Shown here in pieces: positions 6,912 through 50,700 of a stretch of DNA of 64,000 nucleotides. The first letter of the stretch is position 1. Every line of letters starts with the position of its first letter. This DNA comes from Beroe forskalii (lineage: Eukaryota > Ctenophora > Nuda > Beroida > Beroidae): NCBI GenBank assembly GCA_011033025.1, contig WFMF01000397.1:62001-126000 (forward strand). The letters are read 5' to 3'. The notes under the pieces were generated by a model, which was given only the letters and a program-made list of their open reading frames with translations, was not told the DNA's origin and searched no databases. Made by a program: the position numbers and the translations under genes.

Positions 6912-7868
6912 ACAAAACACGCGCTCGTCGCAAACACGTGCTTAACTTGACGCTAACAAGTGCTTGACGCAAACAAGTGCTTGACGCAAACAAGTGTTTG
7001 ACGCAAACACGTGCTTGACGCAAACACGTGCTTGTCGCAAACATGTGCTTGACGCAAACACGTGCTTGACGCAAACACGTGCTTGACGCAAACACGTGCT
7101 TGACGCAAACACGTGCTTGACGCAAACACGTGCTTGACGCAAACACGTGCTTGACGCAAACACGTGCTTGACGCAAACACGTGCTTGACGCAAACACTTG
7201 CTTGTCGCAAACACTTGCTTGTCGCAAACACGTGCTTGTCGCAAACACGTGCTTGTCGCACACATGTGCTTGTCGCAAACATGAACACGTGCTTGACGCA
7301 AACACGTGCTTGACGCAAACACGTGCTTGACGCAAACACGTGCTTGACGCAAACACGTGCTTGACGCAAACAAGTGCTTGTTGCAAACCTGTGCTTGACG
7401 CAAACACTTGCTTGTCGCAAACACTTGCTTGTCGCAAACACGTGCTTGTCGTACACATGTGCTTGTCGCAAACATGAACACGTGCTTGACGCAAACACGT
7501 GCTTGACGCAAACACGTGCTTGACGCAAACACGTGCTTGACGCAAACACGTGCTTGACGCAAACACGTGCTTGACGCAAACGCGTGCTTGACGCAAACAC
7601 GTGCCTGACGCAAACACGTGCTTGTCGCAAACACGTGCTTGACGCAAACACGTGCTTGACGCAAACACGTGCTTGACGCAAACACGTGCTTGACGCAAAC
7701 ACGTGCTTGACGCAAACACGTGCTTGACGCAAACACGTGCTTGACGCAAACACGTGCTTGACGCAAACACGTGCTTGACGCAAACACGTGCTTGACGCAA
7801 ACACGTGCTTGTCGCAAACATGAACACGTGCTTGACGGAAACACGTGCTTGTCACAAACACGTGTTTG
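6912..7868. repeat. 17-bp minisatellite carrying a CACGTG E-box in most units
   Basis: About 950 bp of tandem ACGCAAACACGTGCTTG units. Variants replace GACGC with GTCGC or CACGTG with CAAGTG. Three units carry a 6-bp insertion (CATGAACACG context) at 7,281, 7,474 and 7,820; the first two sit in duplicated blocks about 193 bp apart, showing higher-order amplification. The 17-bp unit has no stop codon on the minus strand, so all three minus frames stay open for about 300 codons. That is a by-product of the repeat, not a gene. CACGTG is the core site of many bHLH transcription factors; any binding here is inference. Confidence 0.92.
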
Positions 7869-20700: not shown

Positions 20701-23700
20701 ACGTTGACCAATATGATGAAAGAGTTGGAGTTCGTTAAAGATGATGGTCATTGGGTTTGGATGATGTGGGTAATCTTCTCTACGTCCTTCAGAAATATGC
20801 GAATGATCTAGCAAGGGCCAGCAACCACTGGTTTAGCTCATTTGAATATGTCTCAAATGACGAGAAGTTACCAATCCTAAGTCGTTGATATTATATCCTC
20901 AGAGGAGATGAAACATTCATTACTCTGTACATATTCAGAAATTCTACAATACAAATGAAGAGCCGCAGATCAAAAAGATTCAGGAGAACTTGGCATCAGT
21001 CTTACGTTAACATGTGCACACTCGAACGGGCGAGGTTACACAGTGGTTCGGTGTTTATTAGAGAGAATATGCTGGTTTAAGAGCACAAATGCACAAGCTT
21101 CTCGCAGGTTCCTCAGAGGCAAACTCATGCCCGCTCCATCCCAAGGAATCCCAAACTGCGATAAATCAATCATGATTAAATAGCTTTGTAAATCATGGAT
21201 GACATTTGCTCCAGACAGTCACCGTTTTTTTTTTGCGATGGAAAAAGCAGAACCCATGTAACATGTACACCATGTACATTGTACAGTCCATGTTGGAATG
21301 TATTGTTTAAAATTTCCTGGAATTCGCTGGATTTTCGGATCATTTATTATAAATCCAACCAAAACGAACACACGGGAAGTTTTTTAAGATGACAAACTCA
21401 GCTAGCAGGTTCCTCATATTCTGCAGTGCCTTCATCACTTTCAAGGATGAATCGTTCATCAGTTATGAATCTTCCATGTTATTTTGCATTTGACTATGTT
21501 CTGATTCCTTCTAACTACAAAATCTAGACAAGGGTTGATCATAGTATCCTGCATTACAGCTCCTCTGTACGTGGTGTGAAGAAAAAGATGAAGTTGCTCA
21601 CATTTTTTCCTGGAAATCTTGAAACAACATTACACGATTCATGAGAAGTGCAACTAAATATAACGGATAACCTAATCATGAATTATAATAAATCGTAATT
21701 ACATATTATGATAAATAAGATAATGGATGTAATGCTGAATGTCTCCTCTTCCACAATCGTTTCTTTTGTTTTGCAAACGACATCGTGGCAATATTGCTTC
21801 TTGTCAGGGGGGCGAAGACTGAAGAGTATCCTTCTATGTGTAGACTTTGTTATGCGAGGAGTTTTTGTGTGTAGAATGCAGATTGCAGGTAGAATACCAC
21901 CTTTTTTCGTAATGTTTGAAATGTGTACTCAATTTTCAGTGGTCGTCTGTCGAGGGATTTTTCTATCCCTAACACCCTTGTTCCATATGCATATTTTTAG
22001 TCGAATTTTTACTCGAATATCCGCGAGAGGAAATTCGAGTAAAAATTCGAGTCGAATTTCTGGGATATTCGGGCAAATATCCGCGCAAAATATCTGTCAA
22101 CGTGTTTACAGATTTTCTCTGCTGTACTCGAATATTTGCGGTAATTGATACCTTGATTAGATCAGGCACCAATGCTAATTAGTCGGATATTTGGGTGAGA
22201 TATTTGCTCTTGGTTCCATATGCATATTTTCTGTGAGATTTTCTCATGACGAACTTAATGAGATAATTAATATACCCACACAACCTATTACACGGCTGTG
22301 TTCTGCGTACAGTGTGTACCTACACACTCTTTGAATTAGAAACACACACGGACTTGCGTCGTTCGAAGAAGTGGATATTGGATAAATTTCTGCTTCTCTC
22401 TCAAAATTCATATAGATACTGACAATTGTACTCCAGTACTCAATACTTCAATAGTACCCCCTCAATAATTTACGATGACAAAACTAATTGTAAAACTTAA
22501 GTTTAAATGATACGACTGGAACAGTTGGTATCGCTATTAAAAAGCTATCAGCTATCTTAACTTAAATCAAATCTTGTATAATGAATTAATCAAATCATGA
22601 GATTATCGTAGTGCGTCATCTCATGACCAAGACTTGAGCATACATTATGAAAGTATGAAAGTATAGTACGGGGGAGCCCTGATAGTACAGAGGAGCCCAG
22701 ATTGTACCGGGGAGCCCAAATTGGTACGGGGGAGCCCGAGTTGGTACGGGGAGCCCAAGTTGGGATGGGGAGCCTGATAGTACGGGAGACCAGATAGTAC
22801 GGGGAGACCAGATAGTGTGGGGAGACCAGAATACCAGATAGTACGGGGAGACCAGATAGTATGGGGGAGACCAGATAGTATGGGGAAACCAGATAGTACG
22901 GGGGAGACCAGATAGTATGGGGGAGCCCTGATAGTACGGGGGAGACCAGATAGTACGGGGGAGCCCAGATAGTATGGGGAGACCAGATAGTACGGGGGAG
23001 ACCAGATAGTACTACGGGGGAGCCCAGATAGTACGGGGGAGACCAGATTGTATGGGGGAGACCAGATAGTATGGGGGACCCAGATAGTACGGGGGAGCCC
23101 AAGTTGGCATGGGGGAGCCCACGTTAGTACGGGGGAGTCCAGATAGTACGGGGGAGCCCAGATAGTACGGGGGAGACCAGATAGTACGGGGGAGCCCAAA
23201 TAGTACCGGGGAAACCAGATAGTATGGGGGAACCCAGATAGTACGGGGGAGACCAGATAGTACTACGGGGGAGCCCAGATAGTACGGGGGAGACCAGATT
23301 GTATGGGGGAGACCAGATAGTATGGGGGACCCAGATAGTACGGGGGAGCCCAAGTTGGCATGGGGGAGCCCACGTTAGTACGGGGGAGTCCAGATAGTAC
23401 GGGGGAGCCCAGATAGTACGGGGAGACCAGATAGTACGCGGGAGCCCAAATAGTACCGGGAAACCAGATAGTACGGGGGAGACCAGATAGTACGGGGGAG
23501 CCCAGATAGTACGGGGGAGACCAGATTGTATGGGGGAGACCAGATAGTGTGGGGAACCCAGATAGACGGTTTGTCCCGTACGTTTAGGGTTGTTTGACTG
23601 GGCGTGCTCAGGACATCTGCGTCATGCGCGTCTCCTTCCAGCTCAGCAATGAGTTGTTGTTCATAGCTGTGTACCCCGGAACAGGTGGCGTGTCCGGGAA

Positions 23701-26700
23701 CTGCTCAAGGAACCTGCCCAAACCGATCTTGAAGCTTTCAAGTGAAATCAGTTGTGAGACGTCATGCGGCAAGATATTCCAAAGCTGAGCTGCTTTAACA
23801 CCAAAAGAACTGTCATAGTCACTACGAACAGATAGCTGGGCTTTGGTGTTGATCTTTGGGATAGTTGCCTTGACCCCAAGCCGAGGATGGTGCTTGAACT
23901 GCATTTGTACATCATTTGGGGCATGTCTGTTGATTATCTTCCATACTTGGATGATGCAGTATCTCTCTCGCCGGCGCTGAAGTGACATCAATTTGAGCTT
24001 CTTAAGTCGGTCCCAATAGCTCATGTCTGATAATCCAGATATTTTACGGACAAAGCATCGCTGAACATTTTCGAGCTTCTGAATGTCTGATATCTTAACA
24101 GGATTCCAAACAGGGCAACAGTATTCGAGTCTGGAACGAACCATAGACTTATATAGAGTGAGCATGACAACAGGAGATCGATCAGCGAAGGCACTGAGAA
24201 CCCAGGATGCCATTTTACGAGCACCTTGTGTAATTTGTTCGATATGGGGTGACCATGATCTATCACTTGAAACAAGGACTCCCAGATCCCTGACCGTCTC
24301 TTTCAGTTCTATAACGTGTCCTTTTGGCGTTTTGTAGTGGAAATTCTCCAAATAGAATGGGAGCTGCCTTAAATAGTAAGAACTATTAAGTGGATAGTTT
24401 AGGAGCTGAAACTTGTCTTCATGAAGCTCCATGTTGTTGATGGTAGACCAATCAATAACAGTAACACTAGTACAAAGGTCTTCTTGTATGGTGCTTTCTA
24501 TCCCAACGACTTGAGATATAAGCTTGGTGTCGTCAGCAAAGCACAGTCCTTTACAGTTTTTAAGAGTAGGAATAAGGTCATTTATGTAAAGGAGGAACAG
24601 TATAGGCCCCAAAACTGTACCTTGTGGCACTCCACTGATCACAGGTTGGGCCGATGACAGAGCCCCTTCCACCTGAACAGTCTGAGTGCGGTTAGTGAGG
24701 AACTGTTCGATCCAGGACAATACCTTTCCCCCGATGCCATAACGCTTCAGTTTCTCGAGCAAGACTTGGTGGTCGACTTTATCAAAAGCCTTGGAGTAGT
24801 CCAGGTATATGACATCTACTTCATCATTGCTGTTGAGACAGCTGTAGATGAATTCTATGTGACTAAGCAGCTGGGTCAGGCAACTGCGCTTTTTCCTGAA
24901 CCCATGCTGGTTGTTGCTTATCAAATTTGCCTCTTCAAGATAGGTTTATGGCATCGTTCATTACAGCGGCCAATGCATTAACAAAACAGTCTAATTGAGT
25001 GACAATTGAGCTAAGGAATATCTGATTAGATTGAAATTATAGCTATAAATGCTATCAAAACACGTTGGTATCAATTTGTAATGTTCACGATACAAAATAA
25101 GGAATGCTGGTACTCCTTCTAGCCTATACATCATCACAAGGACCCCAAGAAAAATAATAATTTCAATCGCATTCATTCCCTTTTCGCACTGATCTTTCCA
25201 GATTCGGATCAGAAGTTGAACGCCATCAACCATATTGCGTGTATGATGCAAGTGTGTACATATAAGTCATTATACTATTACTCTATTAGAATACACTGAG
25301 GTGATTATGATGTGCTCACCCATCGATATCATTCTGCAGCCGTGTCGTCTTTCAAAATTGAATTACGATTCACCCTGCGTGCCAAAAGTTCGACTGGAAA
25401 ATATGCATATGGAGCCCAGAGCGTCTCTGGGATTTTTTCAAGGTCAAATATTCGACTCGAATATTCTAGTCGAATATATCAATATGGAACAAGGGTGTAA
25501 CATGTTTAACGTGTTTAATACGTTAAAAAACTCAACCAATAGCAACGGGATCGATTTCACATAACACCACTCACTTATGGTGTACCTGTAATGTATACTT
25601 AGACCCATTGTGTACTACTTCGTGTCAAACAGATTATTGTTATGACGTTCCAGAGTGTTTGTTTATCGTATGGGGCCTTTGAAATTATTGCAATTCTACC
25701 GATTGCCCCTGCTTGTTGATTGCTTATCATATTGGATAGTGCTGATCAAGTTTTATGTAGATGTTTGGTTGGTGCCTTCCTAGTGAGCCGGTGTTGGATT
25801 ATTGATTTAGTGTACGAAAGTCAAAATTGCTCATTCTGTTCGAATTTCCGTCGTACAATCGTTGAAACCTCCCAAATCGTTTAGATATTGTGAAAACATC
25901 CTCGAATGAACAGAGCTCCAGGAATAACCATCAGAACGTTAGCACGTGTTTATAGTAGCTCTCATAGCAGGAACAATAGCAGCAAAAGTAAAGGTGAGTA
26001 AAGGGCACCGGGCTTATTTCATTGCATATTAACGAGAAACTTCACTGAGTTGACAGTGAAATTCGGATTCGATTTAAGATTTAAATCTCTTCTTGCGTGA
26101 GTTAAGGCTTCTGACAGTTCGATTATCACGAGAGTTTTACATCTGGAATTCTCGTATGAGTCAGCATTTCTAACTTCCATTCCTAACCCCCTTGTTTGCT
26201 CCCCAGGTTGAGTGTGATAACCTAGCTGAGCAGTGCTTCCCGGGACTAAACTTCACAGAACCAGTTGACGTGGTCTACACATGGGTCAACGGATCCGACC
26301 CTGCATGGCAGCAATCCTTCAACCTTCACAAACACCTCACTCGGCTGCGTCTCACCAAGTCAAACGACGGCTTCCATCGGTTCTGGGATAATGACGAACT
26401 CAAACACTCCCTGAGATCGGTGTACAAACACGCGCCCTGGGTACGGCGGGTGTTTATCCTGACAGCAGGACAAACCCCACGCTGGTTGGACGACAGCTAC
26501 TCACGCGTTAGCGTGATCCCTCACGCAGCCGTCTTCAAAAACACCTCCCACCTGCCCACCTTCAATTCAGCAGCCATTGAGACCAACCTCCACCGGATTC
26601 CAGGGCTCTCCGAGCACTTCATCTACTTCAACGATGACGTGTTCCTGGGACGCGATGTGACACCTCAGGTAGCAAACGATCGGTTACCATTTCTCAATGA

Positions 26701-29700
26701 ATCCGGTTACGGTAACTCTTTCGGTTGGCTAAAGACGCCCGGTAAACCGGTATTTCGGATGTGGTTCGGTTAACCCACCGTTTCCTAACCTCAGGACTGG
26801 GTCACGTCAGACGGACGGTACAAGATCTTCACGGCAGCCCTACCGGAACCTAAGCGGGAAGTGGTGGGGGATGCTTTGGTGGTAAGCAGAGACGCATAAA
26901 ATTTGAAAACGCCAGTTTTATGCTCTTCTTCGATTTCCGATTTCCACAAAACTTGATAATATTGTGCACGTTGATGACATTAAGTGAATTGCCAAAAAGT
27001 TTAGCAGAATCTCACTTTATCCCAATTTAATAAGCAGTTCAATTTTCGCCACTTCGTCCTTAACGTCTCTACTAGGTGGAGGTATCCGGGAAGAAGAGTG
27101 ACAATGTGGCAGAGGAGTCCCGGAGGTTCGTGAACCGAGTGTATGATGCGGAGTACGGGAGGGGGAGCAGGGAAGCCATCCCTCACATGCCACATTTCAT
27201 GAGCAGGAGTGTACTCGAGAACTTGCAACAGAGGTGAGTCAGTAGGGGGTCACCAGGGGGGGGGGGTCATCAGGGGGGTCAATAGGGGTACACCGGGTGT
27301 ATGATGAGGAGTACGGGAGGGGAAGCAGGGATGCCATCCCGCACATGCCACATTTCATGAGCAGGAGTGTACTCGAGAACTTGCAGAGCAGGTTAGTCTG
27401 TAGGGGGTCACTAGGGGGGTCACTAGAGGGTCATCAGGGGGACACTGGGTGTATGATGCGGAGTATGGGAGGGGGAGCCGGGATGCCATCCCTCTCATGC
27501 CACACTTCATGAGCAAGACTCAAGAGTGTATTCGAGAACTTGCGAAGCAGGTTAGACGCATGGGCATTAAGTCGCTATCTTTACATTTCAAATATTTATC
27601 GATTAGATTTATAGTAACAAAATTGGATGATGACCGATGAAAACCACTCTGTTCTCCAAATTACACTCATGATATGATGCTACCCGAGTTAAGATGAAAC
27701 TATTGCAGGTTTCCGAAGGAGTTCAGCGAAACATCGTCTCACAAATTCAGATCACCGCAGGACATGCAGTATCCTTTCTCGTACTACTACTTCATACAAC
27801 ATGAGAAGAAAAGACCCACACAAGTGGAGTTTCTCAGTCTTTTCGACAAAAACAACGACGAATCATTCGATTTTGAGGAACTTCACACTCTAACGAAATC
27901 TTTGATTTCTCCCAGTCATAATCCAGGCAATCCGACAAAGATTTGGCTGGGTTACGAAAAGTGTATCCAAAAGAACCACGTTACTGCACTAAACCCAGAT
28001 CTTCTTTCTCAGTGCAGTGGCATAAGGAAAATAATCGAGAACTCATTGTCGACTATCAAAATACCGAGATTTGCCCATGAAATTGTCACAGACAGATCAG
28101 ATATTAACTATGTTGATATCAAAGGTTCATATAAAGACGTATCAGCTCGATTGGACCGATTGGTGAAGTCTCCGACTAAGTTCGTATGTCTGAATGATGG
28201 TTTGAAACACTCCGCAACGTCCTCAGAAGGGGAGATATTGAGAAAGTACGCTCAGACATTACATCAGCTCTACCCCGAGCAAAGCCCATTTGAAGTGCCA
28301 TCAGGGAACACCAGATACTATAACAATACGACATCATGGCTCATGGTGGTGTTAACTTTAGGTTTATTGCTGTCTTTGAGGAAATTCAGTCGATATTTAG
28401 TGGGTGGGCCTGGGTTTAGATATACTGTAGCGAAAGTGTGCCCCACGGTTTATTACAGCTATCAGAATTTGAAATATTAAATCTTTGTAATTCCGATACT
28501 CAGTCTATGATAAAACTTTGCATGCTCCCAGTACCACAATAATTGTTTACATCATTTGTTATTATATGAAGATTTACCGTTCAAAAGGGGTATATTATTT
28601 AAACAATTTCTAGTAAGTTACCATATGTTTCAAAAGACAATTTACCGCATCAGACGCATACCTGGACTCTGGAGTAGCATACCATTTCACAAGACAATCT
28701 ACTTCAAAAGACAGTCAATATACAGGAAGAGACGCATACCTGCAAGACGCTGACTTTGTCGGTTAGCTCCCGGTTGGTTGCTTTCATCGGTTTCACTTGC
28801 TTTTCCGTAACGGCAATTTGCTGTTTGAGCAGTGAGTTGAGACTGTTCATCTTGTTGACTGACTCCATCAACTGATTGACTTTCTCAGTCAGGGCTTGGG
28901 ATTCCTCCACTTTCTTCAGCATGTCCTGGAATGTGGAATGTTTTGGGAGAGAGTTCATTTCACTGTACAAAAATCACTTATTCAATGTATACTAGATACC
29001 TAAACTTAAGACTTCACTGCGCGTACAAAAACTACGTTCTTTCAATTTTTAATTATCACGAGATGTTCAGTTCACATCATTATTTATGTGAATATCGGGA
29101 TCTTGTAATGTCATTTGTAGAAGTTCTTATTTCTGTATCATATAAGTCCTGAAATGAACTGCACTTTGTAAATTAATTAAAGCTGCCTCTTGTTCCCAGC
29201 TGTTTCACTGAGATCCAGCCACAAGATTATGATTGGAAACGTCACGTGACAAATGTTACAGCTCGAAACAATCAGGAATTAGTAGCCATATGTTGTGGGC
29301 TTTAGGGTAAAGCACCTGCTTTTATCCTATCTTAGGAAGCAATCATTAAGATTAAACCTAAGTGACGAATCAAGTGTGGTTTGTTCAGCAGGAGCGTTTT
29401 ATCAAGTGGATCGATTTTTACGGTGTACTGTACTTAGATTTGCTGGTTTTTTGATCATATACTTGGAGACATCAGCACGATGGTTTTAGGACGGATTTCC
29501 AAAATACTTCATCGAATGTATTAGGGCTCAAGATAAAATTTCCAAAATCGCTCTGAAAGTAAGTTCGCTATATTTTGCACAGATAACAAAAAACCGAGTC
29601 TTGTAAAATATCCTCAGAATGTTGTCAGCCTATTAATAGATTAACTTGGCATGTCAGCTACACCACCAAATACCTGGTGTTGTTCCAGCGACATGATGGA

Positions 29701-32700
29701 AGAGTGGGATTTGCTCCTCTCTTCTTCCAGCGTCTTACGACTCTCTTCCATCTGCTTCTCCAGGAAGGCACACCGGTTCTTGTACCTCACTGCTTCGCTG
29801 TCTGTTACTTCCATCTTAGTAGAGAGGATGTCCTTTTCACGGCGAACGTATCTAGGGTTTTTAGTTTCATGTGATTTTGAAATTAATCGATTAAGGTGCC
29901 CGGACAAGAAACCGCCTTATAAAGCTCCAATACAGAACTTAAATCGTACGTCAGGGAAAATTGTGCGACAAACGGTTACGTTGTATGAATATGAGTGGCC
30001 CAACAATCCCAACGCACAATTTGAGCTCTTAGGCGAAGTTATTTCCGGGCGGTTTTGTGTCGACAATTATTCATTTGTAGTTTTGTCTTAGGTCTGTGTC
30101 TGTATTTGCTACAATGTGCCTTTATTCAGACTGTCAAAATTTTGAATCAGACAGTTGATCGAATCAGACTATTCGATCAGTAGAACGCACCTAATTATTT
30201 CCCACAACTCTTCGGTGGATTTGTCCTCGACAGCCTCGCTACTTTCTTTCAGCGGCTGTTCACTCGCTAGTGCTTTCTGCAGCTCGACAACATCTGATAG
30301 AGGGGGGAATTTAATAAATGCTCTGTCACAGAATCAAGAATAATCATTGACGTCATCGTCACTACAGTGGTAGATTTGCGTTTGTTGACGGGCAGAATGG
30401 TAGACGCCTATTATCAACATTGCGAATTGGACAATCCATCCAGACACAGATAATCAACGTATTGCCCTAAATGCCAGATACCCCTCATTCAATCATCTTA
30501 CAACTTCGAGACCAACTTGAGACCACTGATTATATGTTGTTAACATCATCGTCACTACAGTGATAGATTTGTTTATGTGCATGGGGAGAATAGCAGTATG
30601 TGATCTGGTTAAACAAATCGCAGACTGCCCTCATTCAATCAATAATCATTCACAATCCTAATACCAACTTAACATCAACTTGTGACCACTGACTAATAGA
30701 CAGTGGTCACAAGTCAGTGACTATATGTTGCACTCCATTGAGTGACTTCGACAACATCTTTGCTAAGGGAAGCTAGTTGGGAATGTAGCAAAACATTCTG
30801 TTGGTCCAGGTCTTCAGTTCTTTCTTTCAGCGTGTCTCGGTCTTGCTGCAAACCCACCTTCTCCGTGTACCAAACCTTGGATTCTTCCTCCAGTTTCAAC
30901 TCTGGAGAGGGAGGAGTGATAACAGCTGCTCACGGCTAAGAATTTATTTTTACAAAGAATTAATTTTATCAACAAAACCCGCGAAATTTACAGAATTCCT
31001 CCTTAAATTCTACAAAACTAGAATAAAAACGTCCGTGCGCTAAATTCCTTACTAAGACATATTCGCTATGCGCGGTACGTCTATGGCAGAAAACTGTGTG
31101 ACCGTCCCACAATGTCACTTTAGTACCCGTAAATCAAGCAGGATTAGGGTCTAACATTGCATACGACCCTTCATGGATAAGTTTCAAGCTACCCTCGAAG
31201 CGTTTAATTTCAACAATCTGCAAAAGAGCATCTTCCCAGACTAAGGTTTATGTCACATCTATAGAGAAACGCACTCAACAACGCCTCTAAAGCGTAACTG
31301 TATTTTAGATCTGTACACATGAATGCAATGTGCATGGAGCGAAGTGACACGTTCGTTTTGAGTTAAGTTTCTGAGGGGCAATGACCATTGACCCCAGAAG
31401 ATAACTCTGTGGAGTTGGAGATAACTGCGGTGTTGGGTTTTCCATTCAGAAATGGCAAGCTGAAGCTTATTCCAGGAAAATTTCATAAGACTGACATTCG
31501 ATAGAATGTCATAGGCATATTTGGAACCAGTAGTAAAGTGTGATGCAATGTTTAAATGAGCGAGACGTGGCTAGACGAACTGGTATGGGGACATTCAGTA
31601 TGGCTTACAGTTACTGATATGCGAGATTTACTGGTATGAAATGAAGTCTGACAAGCTGACATTATGGAGCCTGAGGTGTCAAAAGCACGTAGCAGTATGT
31701 AGTCTGACGTAGAAGTGTCACGTAATTCTGTTTCATTTCGTAGTGGTTTAAAAAGTTTTTTCAGTAGTGTTGTTAGTTGCTACTTTTAAAAGGGACTGCT
31801 TAACTTCACTTTTACAGCTGCATACAGGCATATTTTGCTCGCCTACGCGCTTAATAGTGCAATTTAATGTGGCCGGTTGATAATGCTCAGTGCATTGATG
31901 TGCCTTAGGCAGTTCAGTTAGTTCAAGGGTTGGCTGGTTTCTTAAAAGCCACGTCAAGGGGCCAGTATTTGAATACAATCATATTGTTATTAGGATTGTG
32001 CAACAGTTCGATACAATCAAATCAGTTTTAACTCTGCACTACTTTTAGCCGACATCAGTTCGCCCACTTGCTCCTGATAGGCCACAGCTTTCTGCGTCAA
32101 GTCTGACACCTTGCCCTCCAACGTCTCAATAGATCCTTTGTGTTCCGCGATACTGTGAAATGTTAAATTGCCGTCATAAGACTTGATTTGAAAACCCAAG
32201 ACTCAAGTCTCAAACTTGATAAAAATAAAATTATGGGGCGTCAGCATTGCTTCGAAAGGACCATCAAAGGTTACTTGACATTTGCCACAACGTGCATCAC
32301 AGATTGTATAACACAACACCTTTCCCCGTTTCCTGACTCAGTTGCGAATACTTGAAGTGTTTTACCTAGTTTGAGCATCTTCGTAGAGAGCATTGAGTTT
32401 GTTGAACTGCGCGCGGATGTCGTGTTCCAGGGATATAGCGGACTCTTCCTTCTGTCTGGCTTCCTCTAGTTGATGCTGAGTCTTGGTGAGAGCAGCACTT
32501 AGTTCCCTCAACTCCGCTGAACCTGTGAAAACAGAATATCAATCATTATTCACTATTCAGGTATTGATACACCGGAAAACCCATCAAGAGGTTTTACCGA
32601 AACAAATTAAAGACCAAACGACAGAATTACAGAATTTGTTCTGAATTAGATAACGAATCTTGAGATAGTGATGGGTTGGAGCACATATTTCGTTTCACAG

Positions 32701-35700
32701 AAAGTCCCAACAACTCTCCAAGTAACAACTTTAGTCGTATTATAGTATTATGAATTATTCCGTGATTTCACTGAATAAAAGCGTTTCCAATGAAAGTTAA
32801 ATCCTCATAAAAGTTCCAGCAAAATGTCACATTCCAATATTTAATTGTTCTTCAGTCCATCTTCATTGAGCGCAGTCAGCAATTGATTCTTAGAAAAACT
32901 AGGACCATGCTCAAACTTGGCCAAAGCTTTCCCTTTTAATTTACTGCCAAATTCTACGATTGTCTTGAATAATATTAATGACAATATTCATTGCTACTCG
33001 TTCATCTGACAGCTCAAGCAAGTAATGAATTAGCGCGTGGGGAGACGAGCCGTTCCTCACACGTATCATACCATCTAGTTGATGCAACGTGGAGTGAAGA
33101 TGATAACATTAGGGCGCTAATGGGCACATGGCAGAAGTTACAAAAGTGCGAACAATTTAGGGAAATTATTCGTATTATCATCTACGGCATCTTTTCCTAG
33201 AAACTTGAAGTTTTGAGTGCCGCAATGCCAATTTTATCGATAAAATACGACACATATAACTGTCACATATTTCATTATTTTCTTTATTGGATTGCGTGTT
33301 CAAGTCCCTATTCACCCGCACGTATGTCATTCCACAACCTGTGTAGCCCAATGTAGAACGTGTATTTATATAACATCCTGTTGCTAATTGGTGTGTCAAA
33401 AACCCAACTGTTGAGCTGCTACAGCTGCAGCTTTATAATAGAAGTGTCGAATGTTAGGAATGCACAGTACGTGTCACATAAAAATTGGATACACATGCAC
33501 TTCACCATCATCAATTCCCCATTAAATCTTATGATAATAACATCATTTTCACCGCATATTTCCCCCGCACGTGCAGCACATATTGTTACGTTGCCCTGAT
33601 ACTCTGATATAGCATCAGATCTCCCCACGAGCTCCCTACCTTTGGTCTGGTGCTGCCCCAGCCTTGCCGCGCCTCGTTGACACACATTATATATTATATT
33701 TAAATTGTCAGATCTCAACCAATTCCTACCTTTGCTCTGGTGTTGCTCCAGCTCCGCTTGCAAACTCTGCCTCGCCTCGTTAGCTGTCTTCAGCTTCTCC
33801 GTCAGAGTGGCGATCTCCTCCCAGTTCTGAGATATCAGTTCCTCCGACGCGCTCTTCACGGACTGCTCGCTCTGACTTAGCTCCCGCAGTGCTAGCTCGT
33901 GCGCTTCGCTAATCTCTTTGTACTAAGAGGGGTAAATGAGTGTTAATTGTTTTTTAAATTACCACGAATAAAACGTCAAAGTATGACGTCAGAGAATTAG
34001 AAATTGTTAACGTTTTAATGGGTTTGACGTACCATGTTCACATATGGTATATCGGAAGTAATGAAACGTAATTGGTTTTCGATATTTCGCTATAAATGTT
34101 CTACCTTAATACTTTGTCGTTTTATTCGTCGAAAAATTAGCTAAGAATGTTAAATTCAATGTTTTTAATTGTTTTAATTCGAAAGCAAATTAATTAGCGA
34201 AGGTGAGCTCCGTTTTCCGGGTACAAGGTGGTTTCATGTTTAGATGTTCTCTTGAGGCATGTCACGTGACATGCACATTATACCACGTGGTCACAAGGTT
34301 AATTTAGCGTACAGTTACGCAGTTGGTGTCATTTGAAACCTGTTCGTTATATTATGTTTTATATCAAACCGTTTTATAGTAAAACCACTTTAAACCCATT
34401 GAATTTTAAATGCAATATGCAAGGTGTATCATGTACCGAAAAGAATAGTTTCGCTTTCGTGGGAATTTTCGTTAATATATAACCGAGAAATTTATATCGT
34501 TCAAGAAAACGTGTTTCATGTAAAAAGATATATAATGAACAAGGCGTACCATATGCGAATTATGAAACCAGTCTCACTAAGAGTGTCTCCTTGGAGCCAG
34601 CAGGCCCCACCTTACCTCCATATAGTCTAGCTACCTTCCTACCACCAACATAATTTATTGTAACCAGTTTCGTTTTGCTTAGGAGTGAGGAAGGCAAAGA
34701 GCAACTAGAACTCTTCCTTTCATGTGTTCTCCGAGCATTCTTCCCTCACTCAAAATTTCTTAAATTTGATGAAAATATACAAAAATTTGTGCTGTGGACG
34801 CTGTTATAGCCACCTACATCGCCTCTTTCACCTGTTGAGCGTGTTGTTTAGCGAGGACCACTTGGGATTGCAGACTTTCCTCCCGGGCAGTCAACTCTAT
34901 GATCTTGTGCTGCAAGTCCGTTATCTTAGCTGTCTGCTCCTTCAGCCGTGAGGCTTGCACTGATATAGTCTCATCCGTCTCTGGAAGATTAGGAATTCTT
35001 CTTAGGAGATGTTTAAACGATTTACTGATATACGACAGCAATTTTCATCAGAAGCTTTCGAAAATCCTGTGATTATCGTCGTCAGCTCTAATTTTATTAG
35101 AGCTGATAAGGCATGGATGAATTACGTATTGATGGTATTTTATCTTGATTAATTCGGAATTCCCAATTCCCATCACCAAGATAGATTTCGTGAATACTGA
35201 AACCAGGCATTGGGATTTGGGATTTGGGAAATGGGAATGGACCAAGGTTAGTCTCATTGCTATGGCTTGTGAGACACAGCAATATCGGAAGAGCATAATA
35301 TATCCTACTATTTAAAATAGTTTGCGACATTGTCTCGAAAGGCTCGGAAAAATGCACATAACCTGCATGTCAACAGGAACATTTCCGAGACAGTGTTTGT
35401 ATAGAATCCCATAATGCCGACTAGTAAATCGTTCTGTTTCTGGGGCATGTCTTAGTTGGCCACACAATCGAAATAAAAGCGTTTTACGTTTACTAATTCT
35501 TAACCGGGAAAAACATAGACCGATAGAATTTTATTTTTCTGGGAAAAATTCCTTTAACAGTTCTAAGAACAGCAATTGAGTGCATGCAGAAATTTTCATG
35601 AAAAGCATTCTAATAATCTAACGTCATCGTTTTTCATCCGATTAAAACTTTAAAAGCGAGATTAAAATACTAATATAATCACCACGAAGTCATGAAATCG

Positions 35701-38700
35701 TCTCGGAAATGAATAAAATAATTACAACTTGATAAAAGTCAGGCGGCAAGATAAGACCGGATTTGCGTTCTCCCTCTCACGGCTTCTGCTACTTACCTTA
35801 ACATTTTATTTTCTAAAGCTTCTAGGAATCTAGGCTTAAATGTTTTTGATAAGCAACATGCTCTTTTTGATCGTTTGTTTCACTTTGGTAATGATGTGAG
35901 TGTGTCTCGTCAGGGTTTGTGTTGAGAAACACAGTTTGTTTAAACCAACATTTGAAACAGTAGCCGTTCGGTCTGATGTTTGCTTACCTTGATCAGGAGA
36001 CATTGTAGACCCCCCATGATCGGACCCTCCCTCCTCACTACTCCTCCTCTCCGCACTACTCTGGAAGTGTTGTAAACTGGATACCCTCGCCCGTAGTTCC
36101 CCACACTCCGTTAGCAGAGTGTTGTGTTCCGCTTGTAGCGCATCTAACTTCTCCTGTCGTTCTCGGAGTGTCTCGCGTTCCTTGTCCACCGCACTCTGCG
36201 GAGAGTGATATATAATGACATAATCATCCTAAGTGCCGTCATTAGGTGTTTTTAAGCATTGTGCTGTGACTCATGGGCCACCATTATAGTATTATCATAA
36301 GCCCCTCGAACTTCTATAATGATGAATATATTATGTCATCCCTGGCCCTTGCAGCTATTACAATAACACTGGACAATGGTGTCCGATTAACAGCAATTAT
36401 TGACTAAACTAGAGGGCTACTGTCCGCTATATCATCATTTACCACTTTACTAATTTATTTCATGCACACCACACCAAGACACATACCCATTAATAGAACT
36501 CCTGCACAGTTCTGCGTAATTATTAACTATTCCCACCCCTCTAGAGGTCGGTGTTATAAGCATTATGATCCTACAGACATATATCCTGCCACTTTATGTG
36601 ACAGTGTGACATGCACACCACAGAACACGGGATGAAGTGCAGCTGTATCGCAGCTACAATATACGTTATTATCGTAGGTGGTAGCTGGTATCTCTCAATA
36701 TTGCGAGGGGAGGAGGCTGCGTGCTTCGTGTTAGATATCTCACTGTTATAACGATACTTTCATCATTTTGTTACTGCTTAAGGTATCTCACTGTTATAAC
36801 GACACAAACTTTCATTATTTGTTATAGCTCCTAAAACTTTTACAGCCTTAGGTATCTCAGTCTCACTGTTATAACGACAAACGTGCATCATTTCGTTACT
36901 GCTTTTACAGCATTAGATATCTCACTGTAAAAGCGACACAAACGTCCCTCATTTTGTTACTGCCCTTAAGACCTCTACAGCCTTAAGTATCTTATTATTA
37001 GTTCCTTATTTTGTTACTGCCCTTAAGACTTTTACAGCATAAGATATCTTACTATTATGACGAAAAACTTAAATCATTTTGTTATATGGACACAGCCCTT
37101 AATAATACTTTTAAAGTCTTAAAACCTCATTTTTCTCAAAATTAAAACCTCACTTATGGCTTATGTGATGGTCAGAGCCTATAAATAACCCTTCCAATCG
37201 ATTCAGCGCCCCAAAACATGGGTTTAGACACCTAACATGCCACAGTTTGACTTGGAAATATATCACGTGAAATTGGCTCAAAATTCCACGATCAGCAGGG
37301 CGTGGGTCACTATTTATGTGATTGTCAGAGCATAAAAATAACCCTTCCAATCGATTCAGCGTCTCAAAAACATGGGTTTAGACACCTAACATGCCACAGT
37401 TTGATTTTTGAAATACATCAGGTGAAAATGACTCAAAATTCCCACGATAAGGTGGGCGTGGTCACTAATGGCTTATGTGATGGTCAGAGACTAAAATAAC
37501 CCTTGCAACCGATTCAGCGTCCCAAAAACATGGGTTTTAGACCATCATGTGCTATATATGTCTATAAATATTTTTCGTTCTGCATCCATGAATTTTCCCA
37601 CGGTCAGAAAATGGTCAATTTTCGAGTTTCAAGGTATTTTTTAACTGGTTTTATATGTTTTCTAACATGATAAGAAGCACAAATAACATAGTGGGATACG
37701 TTAACGAATTTTTGCAGGGTACATGCATATACTGACCAGACTAAAAAGGTTATTTGACATTTGCCACAACGTGCATCACAGATAGTATAACCACAACACC
37801 GTTCCTTAGTTGCGAATATTCTTGAAGTGTTTTACCTAGTTTGAGCATCTTCGTAGAGAGCATTGAGTTTGTTGAACTGCGCCCGGATGTCGTGTTCCAG
37901 GGAAATAGCTGATTCTTCCTTCTGTCTTGCTTCCTCTAGTTGGTGCTGAGTCTTGGTTAGCGCAGCACTCAGTTCCCTCAACTCCGCTGAACCTGAAGGC
38001 ACAAAGATATCATTCGGATAACAGGTATTGATGTTATTTAAGATAATACACCGAACAAGTCAACAAGAGGTTTTACCGAAACATCAAAACGACAGAATTA
38101 CATAATTTGTTCTGAATTATTTTGATATAGTGATGCCGATGGGTTGAAGCACATATTTCGTTTCACAGGAAGTCCCAACAACTCTACAAGTTACAACTGT
38201 AGTCGTATGATGAATTATCCTGTGATTTCACAGAATAAAAGCGAATCCAATGAAAGTTAAATCCTGATAAAAGTTCCAGAAAAATGTCACATTCCAATAT
38301 CTAATTGTTCTTCAGCCCATTTTCATTGAGCGCAATCAGCAATGGATTCTGAGAAAAACTAAAACCATGTTCAAACTTGGCCAAAGCTTTCCCTTTTAAT
38401 TGACCGCCAAATTCTACGATTGTCTTGAATAATATTAATGACAATATTCATTGCTACTCGTTCATCTGACAGCTCAAGCAAGTAATGAATTAGCGCGTGG
38501 GGAGACGAGCCGTTCCTCGCACGTATCATAATATCAAACTGATGCTACGTGGAGTGAAGATGATAACATTAGGGCGCTAATGGGCACATGGTAGAAGTTA
38601 CAAAAGTGCGAACAATTAGGGAAATTATTCGCATTATCATCTACGGCATCTTTTCCTAGAAATCTGAAGTTTTGAGTGCCGCAATGCCAATTTTATCGAT

Positions 38701-41700
38701 AAAATACGACACATTTGACTGTCACATATTTCATTATTCTCTTTATTGGATTGCGTGTTCAAGTCCCTGTTCACCCGCACGTATGTCATTCCACAACCTG
38801 TAGAATGTAGCCCAATGTAGAACGTGTATATTTATAACATCCTGTTGCTAATTGGTGTGTCAAAACCCAACTGTTGAGCTGCTACAGCTGCAGCTTTATA
38901 ATAGAAGTGTCCAATGTTAGGAATGCTCAGTACGTGTCACCCAAACTTGGATACACATAAAGTTTAACATAAGAAATTCCCCATTACATCTCATGATAAT
39001 AACATCACTTTCCACTGCCTATTTCCCACGTGCGCGCAGCACATATTGTTACGTTGCCCTGATACAATTAATATAGCATCAGATCTCCCCACGAGCTCCC
39101 ACCTTTGCTCAGTCTAGAGCCCCTGCCGCGCCTCGTTGATACTTTGATACATACATAGCATTGTCAGATCCCACACAATTTCCCACCTTTGCTCTGGTGC
39201 TGCTCCAGCTCAGCTTGCAAGCTCTGTCTCGCCTCGTTAGCTGTCTTCAGTTTCTCCGTCAGAGTGGCGATCTCCTCCCAGTTCTGAGATATCAGTTCCT
39301 CCGACGCGCTTTTAACGGATTGCTCGCTCTGACTTAGCTCCCGCAGCGCTAACTCGTGCGCCTCGCTAATCTCTTTGTACTGAGAGGAGTAAATGAGTGT
39401 TAATTGTTTTTTAAATTACCAGTGAATAAAACGTCAAAGTATGACGTCAGAGAATTGAAAATTGTTAACGTTTTAATGGGTTTGACGTACCATGTTCACA
39501 TATGGTATATCGGAAGTAATGAAACGTAATTGGTTTTCGATATTTCGCTATAAAAGTTCTACCTTAATACTTTGTCGTTTTATTCGTCGAAAAATTAGCT
39601 AAGAATGTTAAATTCAATGTTTTTAATTGTTTTAATTCGAAAGCAAATTAATTAGCGAAGGTGAGAGCTCCGTTTTTCCGGGTACAAGGTGGTTTCATGT
39701 TTAGATGTTCTCTTGAGGCATGTCACGTGACATGCACATTATATCACGTGGTCACAAGGTTAATTTAGCGTACGTGCTACGCAGTTGGTGTCATTTGAAA
39801 CCTGTTCGTTATATTATGTTTTATATCAAACCGTTTTATAGTAAACCACTTTAAACCCATTGAATTTTAAATGCAATATGCAAGGTGTATCATGTACCGA
39901 AAAGAATAGTTTCGCTTTCGTGGGAATTTTCGTTAATATATAACCGAGAAATTTATATCGTTCAAGAAAACGTGTTTCATGTAAAAAGATATATAATGAA
40001 CAAGGCGTTTCCCATGCGAATTATGAAACCAGTCTCACTAAGAGTGTCTCCTTGGAGCCAGCAGGCCCCACCTTACCTCCATATAGTCTAGCTACCTTCC
40101 TACCACCAACATAATTTATTGTAACCAGTTTCGTTTTGCTTAGGAGTGAGGAAGGCAAAGAGCAACTAGAACTCTTCCTTTTCATGTGTTCTCCGAGCAT
40201 TCTTCCCTCATCAAAATTTCTTAAATTTGATGAAAATATACAAAAATTTGTGCTGTGGACGCTGTTATAGCCACCTACATCGCCTCTTTCACCTGTTGAG
40301 CGTGTTGTTTAGCGAGGACCACTTGGGATTGCAGACTTTCTTCCCGAGCAGTCAACTCGATGATCTTGTGCTGCAGGTCAGTTATCTTAGCTGTCTGCTC
40401 CTTCAGCCGTGAGGCTTGCACTGATATAGTCTCATCCGTCTCTGGAAGATAAGGACTTCAGCTTAGGAGATGTTTAAACGATTTACTGATATACGACAGA
40501 ATTTTCATCAGAAGCTTTCGAAAATCCTGTGATTATCGTCGTCAGCTCTAATTCTATTAGAGCTGATAAGGCATGGATGAATTACGTATTTATGGTATTT
40601 TATCTTGATTAATTCGGAATTCCCAATTCCCATCACCTAGATAGATTTCGTGAATACTGAAACCAGGCATTGGGATTTGGGATTTGGGAAATGGGAATGG
40701 ACCAAGGTTAGTCTCATTGCTATGGCTTGTGAGACACAGTAATATCGGAACAGCATAATATGCTACTATTTAATAATATAGTTTGCGACATTGTCTCGAA
40801 AGGCTCGGAAAAATGCATGCATGTCAACAGGAACATTTCCGAGACAGTGTTTGTATAGAATCCCATAATGCCGACTAGTAAATCGTTATAACTGTTTCTG
40901 GGGCATGTCTTAGTTGGCCACACAATCGATATAAAAGCGTTTTACCTTTACTAATTCTTAACCGGGAAAAACATAGACCGATAGAATTTTATTTTTCTGG
41001 GAAAAATTCCTTTAACAGTTCTAAGAACAGCACTGAGTGCATGCGCAGAAATTTTCATAAAAAAGCATTCTAATAATCGAACGTCATCGTTTTTCATCCG
41101 ATTAAAACTTTAAAAGTGAGATTAAAATACTAATATAATCACCGCGAAGTCATGAAATCGTCTCGGAAATGAATAAAATAATTACAACTTGATAAAAGTC
41201 AGGCGGCAAGATAAGACCGGATTTGCGTCCTCCCTCTCACGGCTTCTGCTACTTACCTTAACATTTTATTTTCTAAAGCTTCTACGAATCTAGGCTTAAA
41301 TGTTTTTGATAAGCAGCATGCTCTTTTTGATCGTTTGTTTCACTTTGGTAATGATGTGAGTGTGTCTCGTCAGGGTTTGTGTTGAGAAACACAATTTGTT
41401 TAACCAACATTTGAAACAGTAGCCGTTCTGACTGATGTTTGCTTACCCTGATCAGGGGATAGAGTGGACTGCCCTGAGAGTGATGTTTGCTTACCCTGAT
41501 CAGGAGACATTGCAGACCCCCCATGATCGGACCCTCCCTCCTCACTACCCCTCGTCTCCGTACTACTCTGGAAGTGTTGTAAACTGGATACCCTCGCCCG
41601 TAGTTCCCCGCACTCCGTGAGCAAGGTGTTGTGTTCGGCTTGCAGCGCATCTAACTTCTCCTGTCGTTCTCGCAGTGTCTCGCGTTCCTTGTCCACCGCA

Positions 41701-44700
41701 CTCTGCGGAGAGTGATATATAATGACATAATCATCCTAAGTGCCGTCATTAGGTGTTTTTAAGCATTGTGTTGTGACTCATAGGCCACCATTATAGCATT
41801 ATCATAAGCCCCTCCAAAGTCCTAATGATGAATATATTATGTCATTCCTGGCCCTTGCAGCTATTACAATAACACTGGACAATGGTGTCCGATTAACAGC
41901 AATTATTGACTAAACTAGAGGGCTACTGTCCACGCTATATCATCATTTACCACTTTACTAATTTATTTCATGCACACCACACCAAGACACATACCCACAT
42001 AGAACTCCTGCACAGTTCTGCGTAATTACTAACTATTCCCACCCCCTAGAGGTCGGTGTTATAAGTATTACGTGATCCTACAGACATATATCCTGCCACT
42101 TTATGTGACAGTATGACATGCACACCACAGAACACGAGATGAAGTGCAGCTGTATCGCAGCTACAATATACGTTATTATCGTAGGTGGTAGCTGGTATCT
42201 CTCAATATTGCGAGGGGAGGAGGCCGCGTGCTTCGTGTTAGATATCTCACTGTTATAACGACAAACGTGCATCATTTTGTTAAGTTTCTTTTACAGCCTC
42301 AGAGTTAGGTATCTCACTGTTATAACGACAAACGTGCATCATTTTGTTACTGCCCTTAAGACTTTTACAGCCTTAGGTACCTCACTGTTATAACGAAAAC
42401 CTTTCCTCATTTTGTTGCTTCCCTCAAGACTTTAACAGCCTTAGATATCTTATTATTATGACGGGAAACTTTCATTTTGTTATATGGGCACAGCCCTAAA
42501 TGAAACTTTTAAAGTCTTAAATATCTCACTTTTGCATCGATTCCCTCCCTGGCCAGGGAGGTAACCCCCCGCGGAATAAAAAAAACTGGCCAGGGGTATA
42601 AGTTAGACATTTCAGTGTCACAGGGTGTATAATATTAATTCCCGCCCTGGCCAGGGCGGTAACCCCCCGCGGTAAAAAGAAAACTGGCCAGGGGTATAAG
42701 TTAGAGATTTGAGTGTCACAGGGTGTTAATATATAAGAATAATAATATATATCATGATAATTGGGAGCAAATTTGAAACGCTGAGATCTCGAGAACGGGA
42801 AATGGTAGAGCCATGATCGAGGTCAGGTTTTGTTGATCTAAGATGGGAAAGTGTTATAGGCTATAAGAGAAGTTCTGGCGACGTCATTATCACGTCACTA
42901 TGACGTCATCAACTTAGCGAAATTTTATTGCTTTTTTAGCGAAAATAGGTCATTTTCGAGCGCATTTTTGACCAAGAAGGAATGGAGATAGCTCAAAAAT
43001 TTTGAAAAATCGTTAGTTGGAAATTTAAAGAGCTTTCAGAAAATTATACGGATCATTGGGCTAAGAAGGAATGGAGATAGCTCAAAAATTTTGAAAAATC
43101 GTTAGTTGGAAATTTAAAGAGCTTTCAGAAAATTATACGGATCATTGGGCTATCTCGATTTTTCATCGAGATATACGCGATTTTCCAAATTATAGGACAA
43201 AACTTAAATGAGTGATATGACAAGAACTGCAACTTATCTTGAGATGAGACCGGTCAAAGTATGTTGTACTAAGGCGGAATTGTCTTATAGGCTATATGGG
43301 AAGTTGGTTTCAGCTTATTTGGGTGCTGTGATGACGTCATCAAAATCGCGTAAAACCACTAAAATAGCGTATTTTGTGATAGAACGCTATTTTGCGCTAC
43401 TTTTACATATCCAACTCCTAGATTATGTGGGTCATAATAACGGGGGTCCGAATAACGGGAGTCCGAATAACGGGGGTCCGAATAACGGGGGTCCGAATAT
43501 CGGGGGCCCGAATAACAGGGGTCCGAATAACGGGGGTCCGAGTAACGGGGGTCCGAATAACGGGGGTCCGAATAACGGGAGTCCGAATATCGGGGGTCCG
43601 AGTAACGGGGGTCCGAATAACGGGGGTCCGAATAACGGGGGTCCGAATAACTGGGAAATATACGATGGACTAGTGAAGCACGTGAGTTCACGCGGACGTT
43701 TTGTAGAAATTAGGGGATTTGAAGAAATTGATATTTACGCAGCATTTTCGACTTGATCATGTTGAAATGAGTTTAAATACGACTAATGCGCATGAAATTA
43801 GATCTGGTTGCCATATTTTAGCACGTGAGTACACACGGACGTTTTGTAGAAATTAGGGGATTTAAAGAAATTGATATTTACACGGGATTTTCGACTTGGT
43901 TACGTTGAAATGAGTTCAAATACGACTAATGCACGTGAAATTAGATCTGGTTGCTATATTTAAGCACGTGAGTACACACGGACGTTTTGTAGAAATTAAA
44001 ATATATCAATTCTAGTAATTTCAAGTTAGAATAACTTAGTTTTGGACTTCCTCAGGGTGATTTATGTGGGTAAGACTTGCGTATGGGCTAGTAACGAGGG
44101 TTCGGACTACGTGAGGCAAGTTACGTGGGTCGAAACTGCCTTTGGGCAAGTAACATGGGTTCAAACTACATACATCTGTCAAGATATCACCACCAAAACC
44201 GTTGGACGGTTGGTCTAGTAACCCCCCGCGGGTTTGGATGTGACAACGGAACCTGAAAAGAGACAAAATGGGCTGATCACATCCAAACCAGCGGGGGGTT
44301 ACTAGACCAACCGTCCAACGGTTTTGGTGGTGTAATTCCCGCCCTGGCCAGGGCGGTAACCCCCCGCGGTAATAGAAAAGACTGGCCAGGGTATATATTA
44401 GAGATTTGAGTGTCACAGGGTGATATAATAATATCAGGGCGCTGGCAAGCGCCCGCAGCCACGGAAAAAAAAAACCCGAGGGCATCTGCCCGAAGGGCAG
44501 ATGCCCTCGGCCCGAAGGGCCGAGGGCAGCCCAACAGGCCAGCAGTCCCGGCCCGAAGGGCCGGGACTGCTGGCCAGACACTCCTAACAAGCCAGTAGTA
44601 CCAGCATGAAGTGCTAAAAGTGGTAGCGGAACCGTTTTTCAAGTATTGAAAAATACGTTTGCCAGCGCCTATTATATAAAATTATAGTGAATTGCGAAAA

Positions 44701-47700: not shown

Positions 47701-50700
47701 CTTGGTTTTTTTTGGGCTTCATCCCCCCCATATGAGTTTAAACCGCAGCCTGTCCGTGGCGGTGTGCTTTGGTAACTAAGAAATATCTTGGTCACGCATA
47801 TTATCTTGCTAAACATCTTCACAATCGCTATTGCCTAAAATCATGCCTTATTAAAGTCTATAAGTGGATTCATGTTTTAAATTGTAATAGCCCTCAAAGT
47901 CGCTGCAAGTTTTCAATCATCAAATAGAGATAAACGTACGATTAATTTTAGCATGCGTTCAAGCCCTTTCACGTGAAAACATAATTGGGAGCAAACTTGG
48001 AAAGCCGAGATGTCAAGAACGGGAAATGGTAGAGCCATGATCGAGGTCAGGTTTTGTTGATCTAAGATAGGAAAATGTTATAGGCTATAAGAGAAGTTCT
48101 GGTGACGTCATTATCACGTCACTATGACGTCATCAACTTAGCGAAATTTTATTTCTTTTTTTAGGTCATCTTTGTGCGCATTTTTCACCAAGAAGGAATG
48201 GAGATAGCTCAAAATGTTGAAAAATAGTTAGTTGGAAATTTAAAGAGCTTTCAGAAAATCATACGGATCATCGGGCTATCTCGATTTTTTCATCGAGATA
48301 TACGCGATTTTCTAAGGTACGGTGAAAAATCGATTTCAAATTATAGGTCAAAACTTAAACGAGTGAGATGTACAACGTATCTTGAGATGAGACCGGTCAA
48401 AGTATGTTGTACTAAGGTGGAATTGTCTTATAGGCTATATGGGAAGTTGGTTTGAGCCTATTTGGGTGCTGTGATGACGTCATCAAAATCGCGTAAAACC
48501 ACTATAATAGCGTATTTTGCGATAAAACGCTATTTTGCACTACTTTTTGAACATCTCTAACTCAGAGAGTTTTCATAGGATAATGTTTTACGTCGATATT
48601 TTGCTTTTAGACCTCGAGATTTAGCTATAAAAATAGTTTCAAGGTGATCGGTCGAAAAATGTCGTCATGTGAAGCCTCTAAAATTGAGCCGCAAAATGGT
48701 TGAAATTGCGTTTATGACGAAAAAATTGTACTGTTGCCCTATTCTGTGATACAATGGTGAACTAATAATGGTTTCTTCATGTCTCGCAGTGACTAAATGT
48801 GGGAAATATACGATGAAATAGTGAATCACGTGAGTTCACGCGGACGGTTTGTAGAAATTAGGGGATTTGAAGAAATTGATATTTACACGGGATTTTCGAC
48901 TTGATTACGTTGAAATGAGTTCAAATACGACTAATGCACATGAAATAAGATGCATGTGCTATACTTCAGCACGTGAGTACACACGGACGTTTTGTAGAAA
49001 TTAGAGGATATGGACACCTTCATGTAAAAGTGGCAATTTTGCCTGATTCCAAGTTTTGTCAGAGAATGTGATTTTATTATCATTAGACAAAGTTTACACA
49101 ATAATTGACCTTGACCTTCGTTAAATAGAGTGGTGGTGGCATACAATGTCGAAAAAATCAAAACCAAAATTGATCTGTGAAAAGAATTAGAACTAAATTA
49201 ATCTCGGCCATTTTAATGATAACAGAAACACAGGCCTCAAGCAATGAAGATGATAACGTGGTCTATAATCCGAATTTCAACCACTTTTATCAATATCTAA
49301 CTACCAGATAATTGAAGCACTGGTACACTGGACCATACCTACTGAAAATTGTATTGATTTATTAATCATGATAACAAAAACACGAGTTTAAAGTTGATAC
49401 AAGCCTCTTCTTAGAGAGACTGCAATTCCAAGCCAGGCCTGAATTGAGGCTTCCAAGGCTGGTAAAAAATGTGAGGCACTACATAATTGATGGCTTAGCT
49501 AGGATAAAAATTCATATCATAAGCCAAAATGGAGCATTAAGACACATTTCCCTGTGGTACAACTTGCTTCTCTATTGCTAGAACGTGTTTTTGAAACCTC
49601 ATTTTCGATCTTTTTAGTGATTTTCGGTTATTTCTTGGTTACCAAATGCTTTGGATTGATCTTGCAGTGATTTTAAGGAATTATAGAAAACAGAATATTC
49701 ATTATCTGGCCGAATTTGGATAATTTTGTCACTATCATACCGAAGTGTGTGTAAATTATCAGTTTTGAGCACAAATATAATCATTAGCCACATTTCAATG
49801 AATAGGATGACAAGAGTAACCCTTTTACAATCATCTTGACAGGAGTTGCCAATCCTATAGCCAAAGTTTATGGTTATAAAGACACAATTCTATTATTTTC
49901 TCTCCAGAATTCACAACTTTGTGTTTTTTAAACCTATGTAAGTGGTTGATAGTTAAATCTTCACTTTATTTGGCGAGAATTTTAGGTACTGCTATGCAAT
50001 AAAGAACCAATTAGTAATCATATCAAAAAGAAATGTAATGTTAGTTGGCCAAGAAATGGATTAGAATATCACAATTGTGTATAAATTATCATTTTCGGCC
50101 ATTTTAACTAATTCAGATAAATTTTTTGATTTGTATGCGATAGCAAACATTTTCACTATCTCTTATACAAGAAAAAGGCATAAATGCTGCTAAATTATTG
50201 ATAATAACAACACATTTAGCTTTGTGTGTTGAAATTACCATATTGAGGCGATTTATGCGTGTTTCCATGACCCCAGATCAGCCACATATTGAGAAGTGAC
50301 ATATCAACAGGGCTAGTTACCTCCTTTAGCCTCTATGGTTATATTCAGTGTTCCAATGGATAGCAAAGTCACAAAAGTGTTTTTGTATCAAATCGGGCCT
50401 TATTAATGAAATTTTGTATTTTTAGTGATTCCATTATCCTCAAATTACCCACTTGCTGATATCTGAAAAATTTCAACTGATTATCATGTTAATTGTCAAA
50501 GATATTCAACATTTTCGATTTTAACCAATTTCTGAAAAGCGGGAAATTGCCACTTTTACATGAAGGTGTCCATTTAAAGAAATTGATGTTTACACGGGAT
50601 TTTCGACTTGATTATGTTGAAATAAGTTTAAATGCGACTAATGCACGTGAAATTAGATCGGTTGCTATTTTTCAGCACGTGAGTACACACGGACGATTTG

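Follow-up and report, generated by a model that had tools for sequence, protein, structure and literature searches.

A 64,000-nucleotide stretch of the Beroe forskalii genome, called the window below, covers positions 62001-126000 on contig C466, which is 166,520 bases long and contains no N. The minus strand of the window carries a gene for the nucleoporin TPR (nucleoprotein TPR, Mlp1/Mlp2/TPR). Within this gene, a block of four exons is present twice. Coding-like exons of TPR span from ~61.7 kb down to 11.5 kb, and possibly to 9.2 kb. The identity of the gene is supported by a match to the Pfam family PF25785 (1.6e-12, 48.2 bits), which lies above the cut-off of 27, and a match to PF07926 (8.3e-5, 23 bits) falls below its cut-off of 36. 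The best relative is TPR of Lingula anatina (5.9e-56, 29% identity over the part searched). Genome-wide searches were run on the 216-Mb assembly of this eukaryote (1134 contigs) and revealed no second TPR gene; the three other PF07926 matches are weak, and none exceeds the cut-off.

The two blocks occupy 37742-42530 and 32262-37130. Since the gene runs leftward on the minus strand, its 5′ copy of the block is the one on the right (B), and its 3′ copy is the one on the left (A). A sequence-only reading of this DNA had claimed that the two intervals align through introns and exons, and self-BLAST combined with a full base-by-base alignment bears this out: 32266-35997 matches 37745-41456 with 92.8% identity over 3772 columns, and 35974-36897 matches 41481-42416 with 91.6% identity over 948 columns. 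This length and identity exclude chance as the source of the likeness. Also as that reading had it, the four exons have equal lengths (208, 149, 193, and 157 nt), phases, and splice motifs in both blocks, and all eight are bounded by GT-AG. In block B, exon 1 (41495-41702) starts at a codon boundary and leaves 1 nt, and is followed by exon 2 (40293-40441), exon 3 (39187-39379), and exon 4 (37836-37992), the last of which leaves 2 nt. The corresponding exons of block A lie at 35988-36195 (again starting at a codon boundary), 34832-34980, 33730-33922, and 32366-32522 (again leaving 2 nt). A segment of 48 nt just downstream from exon 1 (41433-41480) is found in B only, where it repeats the donor-site region.

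The searches turned up no third copy. Among the best 40 of 1075 candidates scored in the assembly, a block matches itself, its twin, and a short dispersed repeat of ~70-110 bp. When the block and the start of the next exon were compared as protein with the whole genome, nine matches were returned (55 of 55 candidates scored), all on C466, corresponding to the eight exons and the next exon. Because only these local exons were matched, a retrocopy or a paralogue as the origin of the exon differences was rejected. An Rfam scan of 28000-54000 gave no match at the gathering score and does not support a structured intron RNA, and no solved structure matched the block at 0.001. In six relatives that were tried, the block aligns best (21-25% identity) from 823-883 onward in five and, in a sea-anemone protein that is partial, from 1012 onward, with weaker coiled-coil matches elsewhere.

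The reading frame places a strong restriction on how the two blocks can be used. The upstream TPR exon (52910-53053) ends at a codon boundary and fits A1 and B1 equally, and the downstream exon (32068-32152), whose own donor is weak, takes 2 nt from whichever exon precedes it and fits both A4 and B4. Either block alone is therefore read in frame with both neighbors and contains no stops. However, the exon total per block, 707 nt, is not divisible by three, and splicing from B4 to A1 consequently shifts the frame. In a chain of all eight exons, the residues EDAQT are followed by 17 foreign residues and a stop, and 16 stops occur over the tested stretch. Read in series, the two copies would disrupt the TPR protein. 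The splice sites at the joint offer nothing visible to prevent this, since the B4 donor is the same as the A4 donor (10 intron bases) and the A1 acceptor is the same as the B1 acceptor (25 intron bases). All five paths that switch from B to A at matched junctions, the pure blocks included, are in frame. The sequence-only reading had spoken of a duplication in a core nuclear-pore gene. The gene is indeed TPR, but a simple in-frame tandem is excluded at standard splice sites, and so is a simple longer TPR, unless A1 uses a poor acceptor 2 bases downstream.

Both blocks bear the mark of coding constraint. The exons differ by 37 substitutions, 33 of which are synonymous, in agreement with an earlier impression that the differences are mostly at third positions. 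All four replacements belong to exon 1 of the block, at its low-complexity end, where they form the SAERRSS/STETRGS cluster already described and one T/A difference, so that the two proteins differ at 4 of 235 residues. With 155.8 silent and 549.2 replacement sites, silent divergence is 21% (33/156; dS 0.25). Had one copy been neutral throughout, ~58 replacements would be expected in place of the four observed (Poisson 2.8e-20). A lineage that was neutral for a fifth of its history is unlikely to yield so few (P 0.0098), and on this basis the possibility that one copy is a decaying pseudogene was rejected, although a neutral tenth would not show (P 0.31). A shift of codon usage between the copies was likewise rejected, as GC3 is 0.596 in both. 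On these counts, both copies have functioned as coding sequence during most of the time since they separated. Such constraint fits two alleles, or cassettes that are used singly, and does not fit a long-dead copy.

The introns give a different picture. Aligned introns of A and B differ at 6.1% of positions (242/3980; 235/3970 in another alignment). For exons 1-3, silent differences number 24 at ~122 sites (the site number being estimated), versus 47 at 1904 positions in the two introns between them; the Fisher value of 3e-13 for this contrast overstates the evidence because the test assumes independent sites, which conversion tracts violate. The introns are also mosaic. A run of 328 bases without substitutions (34552-34880, with indels disregarded) has its end within exon 2, and windows such as 32444-32684 and 33430-33923 reach an identity of only 80-89%. 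Such an excess of silent over intron divergence might stem from gene conversion in patches, if the tracts left unconverted chanced on exons, or from constraint on the introns. The earlier proposal of either a recent real duplication or tandem haplotypes is retained in both of its alternatives. The word recent, however, does not fit the exons (silent 0.21, dS 0.25), although it would fit some of the introns.

Between the blocks lies a spacer (37150-37744) that repeat comparison identifies as one end of a dispersed DNA transposon. Its family has 76 matches in the assembly, the window's own included, among the best 40 of 155 candidates, and copies often occur as inverted pairs ~3-4 kb apart. The terminus is constant (TAGTCTGGTCAG...), with TA at the edge in seven of seven aligned copies. 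From these features, the spacer is probably a fragment of a terminal-inverted-repeat DNA transposon. Beside block B it ends at the true terminus with TA, and beside block A it is truncated inside subterminal repeats of ~155-163 bp. By eye in the alignment, no transposon is present at the matching outer (left) flank of A, and the outer flank of B enters different repeats. No second copy of the spacer of at least 500 bp was found on C466, nor one of at least 300 bp within 15 kb, although shorter remnants are possible; the only other match to the spacer query on the contig (query positions 6-185) is an internal repeat of block A. Recombination between transposons within one chromosome would leave copies at the outer flanks too, and these are missing. 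A transposon at the joint and an empty flank of A can be explained in one step by a single join of two haplotypes, one with the transposon to the right of the block and the other with it to the left, made either by the assembler or by unequal crossing-over, whereas a duplication within a single chromosome would give this layout only with an additional excision or deletion.

The explanation that we favor, with somewhat better than an even chance of being correct, is that blocks A and B represent the same four-exon stretch of TPR in two allelic versions, which the assembly placed in tandem. The real gene would then carry the block once per chromosome, and each version would be intact because it is the sole copy in its own haplotype. 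The assembly probably passed from a first haplotype, with block A followed by a transposon fragment in the upstream intron, to a second haplotype in which the same transposon family is proposed to adjoin block B. The copies behave as intact alleles would, showing 33 silent and four replacement differences and no stops. The frame clash, the constraint, and the transposon layout tilt the choice toward haplotypes, and because neither another copy of the block nor a second TPR gene was found, no alternative haplotype is seen elsewhere in the assembly. From these four observations we infer that the copies are likely alleles and that their join likely arose in assembly.

Other genes that are normally single-copy are also doubled in this assembly. 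Outside the window to the left, a ~5-kb tandem duplication at C466:14059-23769 contains two single-frame RPS8 genes with starts at 14077 and 19392. Their proteins are identical (11 silent and zero replacement differences), the copies differ by several large unmatched stretches, and the joint is clean, with ~2 bp shared by eye. A search for the RPS8 family found two matches at this strength and a third, lower-scoring match on C530, which is presumably NSA2. CCT3, the one gene seen doubled among the chaperonin matches (other chaperonin fragments were left out of the pairwise comparison), is present on C558 as an inverted pair ~36 kb apart, at 175200-178200 and 214100-217100. Over eight compared exons, the CCT3 copies have 30 silent and zero replacement differences, and the next 5′ exon of the first copy is not at the matching place. 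Both doublings look like leftover haplotypes within contigs and to that extent support the haplotype reading. With regard to the excess of silent over intron divergence, these two other pairs differ from each other. The CCT3 pair shows the opposite (silent 9.9%; introns 156/1081, with patchy identity), and the RPS8 pair is mixed, with silent divergence of 7.6% and noncoding divergence of 2.6% (20/755) beside the gene and 7% in two further stretches.

Several observations weigh against an origin in assembly. None of 13 proteasome loci is doubled (25 matches; 34 of 34 candidates scored), and haplotype duplication is thus not general; local doubling of single-copy genes with allele-like differences exists in this assembly without pervading it. 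With its clean joint, the RPS8 pair resembles a real rearrangement more than an overlap error, and so does the inverted CCT3 pair. At the TPR locus, the joint has no gap, and the shared transposon stretch of ~600 bp would be short for a long-read overlap. Moreover, a silent divergence of 21% is very high for two alleles and exceeds the values for RPS8 and CCT3 by a factor of two to three. Silent diversity reaches about 10% or more in species such as Ciona savignyi or Caenorhabditis brenneri, and 21% would be extreme even there, although single loci vary.

If the duplication is real, it could be an old tandem whose blocks serve as mutually exclusive cassettes, so that the mRNA takes B, A, or the first k exons of B and then the rest of A, while double inclusion is lost to nonsense-mediated decay. 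The arrangement has the expected form: tandem homologous exons of the same phase, whose joint inclusion is not viable. Both copies are constrained, all eight exons have intact splice sites, every one of the five switch paths is in frame, and if the copies are paralogous then a silent divergence of 21% means long coexistence. One survey shows a frame broken by double inclusion to be common among mutually exclusive exons (PMC5740500). However, proteins that differ at 4 of 235 residues leave little to gain from a choice between them. Such a choice can be enforced by a short intervening intron, a U2/U12 mismatch, or competing RNA structures; here there is no steric limit to joint splicing (the B4-A1 intron is 1640 nt), and the sites are GT-AG and alike in both copies. 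In addition, four exons must be skipped as a group. Furthermore, an internal duplication of at least 100 amino acids with >40% identity is present in none of 120 listed TPR relatives (of 513, mostly vertebrates), a scan that would miss an old duplication. We therefore regard cassettes as doubtful. Improbable as well is the corollary that a genuine four-exon cassette was long kept with a near-identical protein while exon silent sites changed ~3-8 times faster than introns; in that case the introns may, for instance, have been homogenized repeatedly or carry signals for the splice choice.

Unequal crossing-over between diverged haplotypes, at spacer transposons in non-allelic positions, would also produce a real duplication, and the sequenced animal would then carry one, probably damaged, allele of this kind. 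A single transposon at the joint with empty outer flanks is what this origin predicts, as is allelic divergence with constraint on both copies. Under default splicing, however, such an allele would yield a truncated TPR and should be rare, and yet the assembly would have had to pick it. We regard this origin as quite unlikely. Finally, the duplication could lengthen TPR if B4 were joined to an acceptor 2 nt downstream in A1. This would restore the frame, open the whole eight-exon chain, and extend the coiled coil by ~235 residues. That acceptor, however, scores poorly (−3.5 versus 3.6; GAG|T), stands behind a good AG, and would have to be used in A and ignored in B even though the surrounding sequences are identical. 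A longer protein is very improbable indeed.

If A and B are tandem haplotypes, doubt falls on gene models for TPR, RPS8, or CCT3, and the assembly should be screened for duplicates inside contigs, which removal of redundant whole contigs would miss. If the duplication is instead real, a core nuclear-basket protein would be made by an all-or-none choice between two four-exon cassettes that are nearly identical, and it would have to be explained why silent sites diverge more than introns.

Other features of the window were observed in the course of this analysis. The interval 13736-28739 is a single TPR intron of ~15 kb, whose flanking exons encode segments that are contiguous in the Lingula and rat proteins. 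Two features lie on its opposite strand. One, identified by eye, is a C2H2 zinc-finger-like open reading frame (ORF) at 18880-19998. The other is a GNPTAB-like Stealth gene, in which 27698-28480 matches Stealth CR3 and CR4 and 26174-26773 (by eye) is a further part. A reverse-transcriptase-like ORF (23608-24945, by eye) is located in the same intron. An element of ~1.1-1.3 kb is present at 1787-2848, 43063-44329, and 51426-52731, and in part at 47981-48586, in copies that are ~90-93% alike; the first three contain an array of the 15-bp unit GGGTCCGAATAACGG. Long minisatellites occupy 6946-7868 (17-bp unit, 53 copies) and 22663-23565 (19-bp unit, 46 copies).

Three known systems invite comparison. 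Tandem duplication by unequal exchange between transposons likewise leaves a transposon fragment at the joint, but the outer flank of A has no transposon, so two different haplotypes would have to be the partners in the exchange. Mutually exclusive tandem exons share with TPR the homologous tandem exons, the same phases, and a double inclusion that is out of frame. In the survey cited above, exons whose length is not a multiple of three occur in 377 human mutually exclusive clusters (60%) (PMC5740500). TPR is unlike these systems in having a four-exon block on either side and almost identical protein. A search of the literature on multi-exon exclusive splicing and on TPR splicing found no example. 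The nearest case encountered, in a report that describes human tandem exon substitution events, is the swap of two tropomyosin exons for one homologous exon (PMC9741552). Another report describes false exon and gene duplications that arise from divergent haplotypes, some of them adjacent, in bird and platypus assemblies (PMC9516828). The TPR locus differs from this heterotype false duplication in its joint without a gap and its very high silent divergence, but resembles it in that adjacent duplicated exons belong to one gene, both copies are intact, and the outer flanks are single (PMC9516828).

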